A stretch of DNA of 64,000 nucleotides from Gemmatimonadetes bacterium 2013_60CM_65_52 (GTDB lineage Bacteria > Gemmatimonadota > Gemmatimonadetes > Gemmatimonadales > Gemmatimonadaceae): positions 389,406-453,405 of the forward strand of contig NGFI01000002.1 of the NCBI GenBank assembly GCA_002215645.1. The letters are read 5' to 3'. Position 1 is the first letter of the stretch, and each line of letters begins with the position of its first letter. Of this stretch, positions 57,786-58,836 are shown piece by piece. Both the position numbers and the translations under genes were made by a program. The notes under the pieces are model-generated. The model was given only the letters and a program-made list of their open reading frames with translations. It did no database searches and was not told where the DNA came from.

Positions 57786-58352
57786 TCAGGCGGACGCAGC
57801 CGTCCGGCGGCGCATCAGCGCGAAGGTTGTCGTGTTGTCCTGTCGGTCCTCGAGGCCTGAGGCGAGCTGAACGAGGCCGTATTGGGCCGCCGCCCACGGC
57901 GCCGCGATCGCCGCGACCGTCGGATCTCGGCGGATGGCCACGAGCCGAGCCGCTCCCGCGGTATCGTGCGCTTCGACCACCTGGATGCGGGGATGCGCCG
58001 CAAAGAAGCGCGTGCACTGGCGCAGGGCCATCGGGTGGCTCAGCACTTCACGTATGTCGTCCACGGTCGCGCCGCCGATCCCAAGCAACGCGAGCTGGAT
58101 GGGCAGTGAGACTTCGCGCACGCGCTCGAGCGACGAGAACTTCCCAATGGCATCCAGCGCGGCGTGCACGGGACCGGCAATCAGGTTGTCGACCGGGATC
58201 GCCGCGAAATCGGCATGTCCATCCACCACGAGTCGCGCTGCTCGTTCGAAGGTGTCGCACGGCAGGAGGTCGAGCGCGCCTTCCACGAGCTGCATGGCGG
58301 CGCGCTCGCTGAACGCACCCGACTCTCCCTGAAATGCAACGATGGGACGCAC
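57786..58352 (-). CDS. pheA: Prephenate dehydratase without ACT domain
   Basis: Turns prephenate into phenylpyruvate in phenylalanine synthesis. 188 residues, catalytic domain only. GESGAFSE (near 9), VDNLIAGPV (near 55) and SHPMALRQCTRFF (near 107) fit the family. The usual catalytic TRF motif reads NTTTF (near 178), so Thr and Phe are kept but Arg is lost. GTG at 58352 is preferred; an ATG at 58406 would overlap the peroxiredoxin gene by 38 bases. Lacking the ACT domain, feedback inhibition by phenylalanine is not expected in the usual way. Confidence 0.75.
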   Translation of the reverse strand: MRPIVAFQGESGAFSERAAMQLVEGALDLLPCDTFERAARLVVDGHADFAAIPVDNLIAGPVHAALDAIGKFSSLERVREVSLPIQLALLGIGGATVDDIREVLSHPMALRQCTRFFAAHPRIQVVEAHDTAGAARLVAIRRDPTVAAIAAPWAAAQYGLVQLASGLEDRQDNTTTFALMRRRTAASA

Positions 58353-58368
58353 GCGCGGGGTCGTCAGC

Positions 58369-58836
58369 TCACAACCTCGCCACGACCTCTGCAACCTCGT
58401 TCGCATGGCCGACGGGTTTCACCTTCTCGAAGACGTGTGCGACGCGGCCGTCGCGGCCGATGACGAAGGTCGTCCGATTCACACCCATGTATTTCCTTCC
58501 GTAGAGCGACTTCTCGCCCCAGACGCCGTACAGCTCGCACACGGCGTGGTCGGTGTCGGCGATGAGCGGAAACTCGTATCCGTGCTTCGTCTTGAACCTC
58601 TGATGCTTGGCGACGGAGTCCGGGCTGACTCCGATGACCTTCGCGCCGAGTCCCTCGAACCGAGGGAGGGCATCCTGGAAACCGGATGCCTCGATGGTTC
58701 AGCCAGGGGTGTCGTCCTTCGAATAGAAGAACAAGACCACCAGCTTTCCCTTGAAGTCTGCGAGAGACACACGACCGCCGGTGTCATCCAGCGCCGTGAA
58801 TCCGGGCGCCTTGTCTCCAGCTTTCATGCTAGGCAT
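58369..58836 (-). CDS. Selenocysteine-containing peroxiredoxin (Bcp/PrxQ-like)
   Basis: Reduces peroxides. Read through one in-frame TGA (58699-58701) the gene encodes 155 residues that fit Bcp throughout: KAGDKAPGFTALD, FFYSKDDTPG, then position 46 (normally the peroxidatic Cys) as UGA, then TIEASGFQD, VIGVSPDSVAKHQRF, EKSLYGRKYMGVNRTTFVI and a normal C-terminus. The TGA is followed by a SECIS-like hairpin. The resolving Cys five residues later is Ser. The ATG at 58836 has GGAAAG upstream. A broken gene is unlikely, since every other codon is intact. No sel genes are in the window. Confidence 0.85.
58666..58692 (-). promoter_or_regulatory. SECIS-like hairpin after the UGA codon
   Basis: In the mRNA, seven bases after the UGA, GAGGCAUCC and GGAUGCCCUC pair (7 bp perfect, then a one-base bulge) around the 8-base loop GGUUUCCA. 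The loop starts 15 bases after the UGA and opens with GGU, as in bacterial SECIS elements read by SelB. Confidence 0.65.

Follow-up and report, generated by a model that had tools for sequence, protein, structure and literature searches.

A Bcp-type peroxiredoxin gene of the Gemmatimonadaceae with a predicted selenocysteine codon at the peroxidatic position and a distal candidate SECIS hairpin

One gene in the window (the whole 64,000-nucleotide stretch of DNA analysed here) resembles bcp/prxQ and is interrupted by a TGA at the codon for its catalytic residue. Is this TGA read as selenocysteine (Sec), and if so, which RNA element would direct its decoding? On the minus strand the reading frame spans 155 residues; codon 46 is a TGA, the only internal one, and the stop codon is TGA as well (Table 1). 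The internal TGA lies in the context FYSKDDTPG-U-T and replaces the peroxidatic Cys (CP) of the TPG-C-T active site. With Cys put in for the TGA, the protein scored 155.8 bits against the NCBIfam Bcp model NF006960 (cut-off 140) and 139.9 bits against the Pfam AhpC-TSA model PF00578 (cut-off 26), which places it among the peroxiredoxins and, within them, with the Bcp type. Translation and both models thus confirmed the initial annotation of a Bcp/PrxQ-like gene that is intact on both sides of the TGA for 155 residues. Because homologues tend to begin at residue 4, the second ATG, at position 58827, is the likelier translation start. The downstream gene pheA (scanned as 57786-58406, with a GTG taken as its start) is likely to form one operon with bcp. 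Where the TGA is counted as a stop, the gene is probably annotated as truncated or split.

Table 1. Features of the bcp locus and of selD in the same genome. Coordinates are positions in the window unless a contig is named.
Feature	Position	Strand	Basis
bcp/prxQ gene, codon 46 an in-frame TGA	58369..58836	-	translation, Pfam/NCBIfam match
In-frame TGA, predicted Sec codon at the peroxidatic (CP) position	58699..58701	-	codon comparison across 70 loci, Sec machinery
Codon 39, Ser at the catalytic Pro position of PxxxTxxC	58720-58722	-	alignment
Ser51 codon at the usual resolving-Cys position (CP+5)	58684..58686	-	residue 51 in alignment; counted from codon 46
Proximal hairpin of the initial annotation, 7 bp, loop GGUUUCCA	58669..58690	-	fold of window sequence
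Distal hairpin, proposed SECIS core, 7 bp, GUU loop closed by G-C	58651..58667	-	pairing and covariation in TGA genes
Prephenate dehydratase gene pheA, 16 nt past the bcp stop	57786..58352	-	PF00800, 166.2 bits
selD (L047), contains an in-frame TGA and immediately precedes the tRNA-Sec gene	own genome, contig C13, 706819-707924

A single in-frame TGA could be a sequencing error, or a true stop in a dying gene; TGC and TGT are one base away from TGA, and the active-site Pro of the window protein has changed too. We searched for the same codon in related genomes. Bcp matches (E<=1e-20) were found in 240 of the 395 genomes searched in the phylum, and all places with one TGA among the matches listed in that search fell in the window's own family, the Gemmatimonadaceae. 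Within this family 135 of the 179 genomes searched gave a match at E<=1e-25, with 30 places that contained one TGA. We aligned all 30 with 40 other loci. Thr43 and Arg121 were present in 70 of the 70 aligned sequences, and the CP codon was TGA in 28, TGC in 38 and TGT in four, so that Cys-containing Bcp homologues do align at the Sec position (42 of the 70 loci), in agreement with the initial annotation. In the 28 TGA genes the CP codon is the only TGA within the aligned protein. The two remaining places listed with one TGA (G407 and G408) in fact carry TGC at the CP codon; the TGA of G408 sits at residue 154, and G407 has no stop inside the alignment. The 42 Cys loci comprise 36 from the family and six from elsewhere in the phylum (L033, L036, L042, L043, L044 and L046). 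Two of the 42, L056 and L071, represent one gene of genome G070, leaving 41 distinct Cys genes; L071 was excluded from the tree and from the structure counts, and the fragment L087 from the structure counts.

TGA thus occupies exactly the CP codon in 28 of 179 family genomes, which excludes a sequencing error, and 27 other genomes stand in for resequencing of this one in establishing the TGA as a true codon. These 27 genomes, together with the homology on either side of the codon and with the Sec machinery and covarying hairpin described below, refute an error or a dying gene for the group as a whole. For the window gene itself we regard either as very improbable.

The genome that carries the window encodes a tRNA-Sec with a TCA anticodon (69.6 bits, cut-off 47; also called by ARAGORN) as well as selA (542 bits), selB (324 bits) and selD (367 bits), and hence has the Sec-decoding trait. 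The initial annotation had proposed a Sec codon at the peroxidatic position, and this proposal held up: selB and selC, on which it hinged, were both found, as were selA and selD. The selD gene itself contains one in-frame TGA, and its match ends 94 nt before selC. The selD and tRNA-Sec genes adjoin in many relatives as well.

Among the 30 genomes with one-TGA places, tRNA-Sec was found in 23, selB above cut-off in 23, selA in 24 and selD in 25. All 28 genomes whose CP codon is TGA had at least one of tRNA-Sec, selA, selB and selD above cut-off, and 18 had all four; at the thresholds used, G407 and G408, with TGC at this codon, had none of the four. Seven of the ten TGA genomes with gaps in the machinery are less than 90% complete. 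The other three are G257 (95% complete), where selB was missing, and G342 (93%) and G306 (90%), each of which lacked tRNA-Sec and selD. As tRNA-Sec was present in 277 of the 395 phylum genomes, the Sec trait is common in the phylum.

The codon might be read as Trp or Cys without any selenium, by a changed code or by plain read-through, and SECIS-free read-through of UGA is indeed known from some genetic codes. The complete set of tRNA-Sec, selA, selB and selD speaks against such a reading, as does the restriction of the sole inner TGA to the CP codon in 28 of 28 genes, where it goes with a hairpin. Nor is TGA simply reassigned, because the same gene's own stop is TGA. We consider decoding without selenium extremely unlikely. 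Judged from sequence, Sec is almost certainly what the TGA encodes, and it is the sole good reading.

To function in this way the codon would require a SECIS. According to the accessible text of PMC13188914, bacterial SECIS elements have a loop of 3-9 nt with a G in the first two positions and an MFE <= -7.5, and the UGA-to-loop spacing given in the accessible text of PMC13188914 and PMC10778597 is 16-37 nt. We applied a stem criterion of 4-16 bp. The 52 nt from the TGA folded at -24.1 kcal/mol (z = -2.85) and formed two hairpins: the proximal one, which the initial annotation had described, and a distal one, which it had overlooked.

In the window gene the proximal hairpin is present as described, with 7 bp and an 8-nt loop that opens with GGU, all in keeping with the published loop and our stem limits. 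It had also been placed at the spacing expected of a SECIS; this did not hold, as 15 nt separate the last TGA base from the loop, one below the published minimum. The noted hairpin is not the conserved element either, with all of its pairs made in only 4 of the 28 TGA genes (and in none of 40 Cys genes). A variant of 9 bp that includes one bulge was fully paired in 10 of 28 TGA genes versus 1 of 40 Cys genes. Across the TGA genes 87.3% of its cells were paired and 13 were double-changed, a count that 0 of 500 shuffles equalled. Its five lower pairs were present in 20 of 28 genes, where codon draws led us to expect 3.9, and folding of the proximal region averaged -12.4 kcal/mol in TGA genes versus -6.6 in Cys genes. 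The loop has no conserved G: GATTTTCGC was the commonest form of columns 19-27, in 9 of 28 genes. These data suggest that the proximal stem has probably been retained for a reason, and it is probably a remnant of an ancestral SECIS or a helper.

The distal hairpin gave a different outcome. Its stem begins 31 nt after the TGA, and the distance from the TGA is 37 nt to GGUUC and 38 nt to GUU. In an ungapped alignment 27 of the 28 TGA genes, but none of the 40 Cys genes, could form all seven pairs (195 of 196 cells paired versus 143 of 280); the one exception, L020, lacks a single pair. All but one of the 28 TGA genes have G-GUU-C as the loop, and GGTTC stands at this place in 3 of the 40 Cys genes. 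RNAalifold predicted the distal hairpin completely and the proximal one partially. Compared with the SECIS consensus in the accessible text of PMC13188914, the distal hairpin is alike in its loop (GGUUC or GUU), its leading G, its stem (6-7 bp) and its MFE (-7.9 to -12.8 for the distal region over the 28 genes); its spacing is at the upper limit or one past it.

Coding constraint does not account for these pairs: random draws of synonymous codons gave the distal hairpin in an expected 0.59 of 28 genes, and it was observed in 27. For an Arg within the hairpin, 27 of the 28 TGA genes use CGG and one has CAG. The same Arg in the 41 Cys loci is encoded by CGC or CGA in 26 and by CGG in five.

Three pairs of the distal hairpin changed on both sides, in 24 cells, and 0 of 500 shuffles, which do not preserve kinship, scored as high. 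The covariation score was 0.34 versus 0.19 and was lost on sliding the partner. Two of the five covariation measures were unremarkable, namely the number of double-change pairs (65 of 500 shuffles) and of further pair types (498 of 500). Parsimony on the protein tree called for double changes to have arisen independently five times (three times at columns 39-47 and once each at columns 36-50 and 35-51), while the same covariation count on 38 Cys genes (the divergent L033 and L044 excluded) gave no signal. The covariation is an observation, as are the position of the TGA, its conservation and the machinery. The sequence data point to the distal hairpin as the most likely, putative docking site of SelB.

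Where does the corresponding loop lie in other bacteria? A pattern scan of named genomes for a TGA in the Bcp active site returned at least 119 stretches, with Acidobacteria, Chloroflexi, Neomarinimicrobiota, Planctomycetes, Deltaproteobacteria, Bacillota, Actinomycetes and others as source groups among the matches listed. Two chance hits (L151 and L196) and eight stretches identical to family members over 66 nt were removed from the 119, leaving 109; the active-site Pro is present in all 117 pattern hits, but the pattern requires it. Among the matches listed, 43 of the 109 other-group Sec-Bcp genes had a GUU loop on a stem of at least 4 bp at +17, and none of the 109 had a GUU loop at +38; in 52, no hairpin with a three-nt loop beginning with G (GG or GU) was found by the criterion used. 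In the family, on the other hand, a GUU-loop hairpin occurs at +38 in 27 of 28 genes and additionally at +17 in three. In one gene assigned to 'Gemmatimonadetes bacterium' outside the family copies (L159), the GUU loop stands at +17 and is absent from +38. The candidate SECIS loop of the family therefore appears to lie 21 nt further downstream, at +38 versus +17 in many relatives elsewhere.

The SelD genes of the same genomes carry a hairpin, GGTCCGGG(T/C)GACC, at a constant distance from their TGA in 17 of 21 loci, with a 5-nt loop at +16 (described from these 17, with L209, L218, L222 and L228 left out). A single SelB presumably serves both the distal spacing of bcp and the proximal spacing of selD.

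The same selenoprotein would be made if SelB docked on the proximal hairpin, as it seems to do in other groups, with the distal hairpin acting as an enhancer or a roadblock. Such docking would fit the 9-bp stem, which is conserved with double changes, is paired beyond the synonymous expectation and folds more strongly when the gene has TGA than when it has Cys; the GGU-opening loop of the window gene may play a part or even be the actual SECIS. The three relatives with a further GUU loop at +17, the closeness of the SelD hairpin to its TGA and the distal spacing at the upper edge of the published range (38 nt if the loop is GUU alone) point the same way. However, the G of the proximal loop varies whereas 27 of 28 distal loops retain GGUUC, and full pairing in 4 of 28 (noted form) or 10 of 28 genes (9-bp form) compares with 27 of 28 for the distal hairpin. 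Proximal docking is consequently a possibility that we take seriously but regard as rather unlikely.

With the distal hairpin as the preferred docking site, we can propose a history, for and against which we see about equal chances. The SelB loop of the family would have shifted downstream by seven codons (21 nt, roughly two RNA-helix turns), the old stem becoming a spacer, and one SelB would serve both the distal bcp and the proximal selD SECIS; the Sec codon would have gone back to Cys on several occasions, and the distal hairpin would have decayed afterwards. If this is true, a bacterial SECIS can relocate within a coding sequence, and Sec/Cys exchange in peroxiredoxins is not one-way. The displaced hairpin would also be a natural test of the maximum UGA-SECIS distance in bacteria.

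The Sec/Cys part of this history was examined on a protein tree of 69 sequences with columns 46 and 51 masked. The tree requires nine Sec/Cys changes, at least five of which are forced by well-supported branches. Cys genes lie within Sec clades (L021; L038 and L084-L087; also L019, L023, L067 and L068), and this nesting suggests reversion from Sec to Cys. As the distal hairpin is common to 27 of the 28 Sec genes, one gain followed by several reversions is the simplest history, and the sequences are most simply read as several changes from Sec to Cys; parsimony alone cannot separate gain from loss. One nested gene, the Cys-type Bcp L086 (G428), has kept GGTTC and six of the seven distal pairs, and its hairpin is probably a fossil SECIS. 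Decay of the hairpin is not general proof of reversion, as only L086 clearly retains it: the other eight scorable nested Cys genes have one to five distal pairs, like the 31 other Cys genes.

We also considered the bcp-pheA pair as a marker of the Sec form, scoring it only where the locus extends far enough downstream. Within the genus, pheA adjoins bcp for the Sec genes L017 and L020 and for the Cys genes L022 (G195) and L071 (G070), which rules the marker out. Since Sec genes and Cys genes of another clade both stand beside pheA, gene replacement is indicated too.

In a 2006 survey of Sec/Cys exchange, peroxiredoxins were credited with no Sec-to-Cys and five Cys-to-Sec events, and exchange was described as mostly unidirectional (accessible text of PMC1794560). 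The nested Cys genes bear on that claim.

How would the enzyme work? At CP+5, where 2-Cys PrxQ proteins have their resolving Cys, the window protein has Ser51, and Cys100 is its sole remaining Cys. The initial annotation was correct in this for the window gene, but the loss is not a trait of the group: of the 28 TGA genes, 23 encode Cys at CP+5, four Ser and one Val, and every one of the 42 Cys loci has Cys there. Reliance on an external thiol is therefore proposed for the window gene and not as a group property. The difference between Sec and Cys forms (Cys missing in 5 of 28 versus 0 of 42 loci, the latter being 41 distinct genes) gave a Fisher p = 0.008 with kinship ignored, and the tree contains five CP+5 changes. 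For the other groups the count covers Sec forms: among the matches listed, 39 of the 109 Sec-Bcp genes have Cys at CP+5. To judge from the alignments, loss of the resolving Cys is compatible with reduction by an outside thiol.

Cys100 is unlikely, as a rule, to replace the resolving Cys, as only two (L017 and L066) of the five Sec forms without a CP+5 Cys possess it. Of the remaining three, L069 has a Cys at 79, and L020 and L049 have none in the aligned part, which lacks the first nine positions of L020 and the first four of L049.

The active site of the window protein shows a further change. The T-x-x-U part of the PxxxTxxU motif is present as TPG-U, and Ser39 stands in place of the active-site Pro, which all 27 other TGA genes and all 42 Cys loci have at residue 39. 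To our knowledge this Pro is nearly invariant in peroxiredoxins. The Ser may reduce the activity of the window protein.

Taken together, the gene very probably encodes a Bcp/PrxQ-type peroxiredoxin with UGA read as Sec at CP, SelB most likely acting on the distal hairpin, and reduction by an external thiol. We infer the insertion of Sec, the binding of SelB to the distal loop, the peroxidase activity and the reductant. SelA and SelD would load selenium onto tRNA-Sec, and SelB would dock on an mRNA hairpin in the coding region and deliver the charged tRNA to the UGA. The docking hairpin would be the one with the distal G-GUU-C loop, 37 nt after the UGA, the proximal hairpin being an ancestral remnant or an auxiliary stem. 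The selenolate would then reduce H2O2 or organic hydroperoxides, and because the resolving Cys is Ser, an external thiol, either thioredoxin or a small one, would reduce the resulting selenenic acid.

Gemmatimonadota are common in soils, and the gene extends a known selenoprotein family within this phylum. What deserves specialist attention is the apparent displacement of the SECIS, together with the seeming reversions to Cys. Among the titles and abstract openings of the open-access literature, we found no report of a Sec-Bcp from Gemmatimonadota or of a displaced SECIS.

In further favour of Sec decoding, the same genome contains a second TxxU peroxiredoxin-like gene whose in-frame TGA falls at the TxxU position (L229; contig C2, 628058-628441, plus strand, TGA at 628193). 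Its N-terminus looks by eye like a signal peptide, Phe occupies the place of the active-site Pro, and a hairpin of 7 bp with the loop CGUGAUCA lies 21 nt after the TGA.

Three known systems invite comparison. PrxU of Eubacterium acidaminophilum, reportedly described by Sohling et al. in 2001, is likewise a peroxiredoxin containing selenocysteine; model NF040737, which from its name we take to represent this protein, gave the window protein 57.2 bits against a curated cut-off of 270, and membership in PrxU was rejected. With the Cys-type Bcp/PrxQ proteins, of which E. coli BCP is one, the window protein shares TPG-C/U-T, the active-site Arg and matches to solved structures down to E = 4e-38 (5enu, 5iph, 3gkk and others), the nearest chains being 5enu and several 'bacterioferritin comigratory proteins'. 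It differs from them in having Sec for CP and Ser for the CP+5 Cys.

The closest counterpart is the Sec-containing 'Prx, TxxU' family. In the accessible text of the respective papers it is represented by 43 genes in the Sargasso Sea set, under COG1225 (PMC1088965), and by 253 in the GOS set, under pfam00578 (PMC2398784), and reviews list it as COG1225/Bcp (PMC9312934) or as pfam00578 with the motif PxxxTxxU (PMC13188914). The window gene agrees with it in family, in the TxxU active site, in Sec at CP and in a hairpin within the coding region. It differs in the Pro-to-Ser change and in a proposed SECIS core that lies 21 nt downstream of its position in 43 of the 109 other-group genes among the matches listed. 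Because the family has already been described, the gene is an additional member of Sec-Bcp, and the displaced SECIS makes it a variant.
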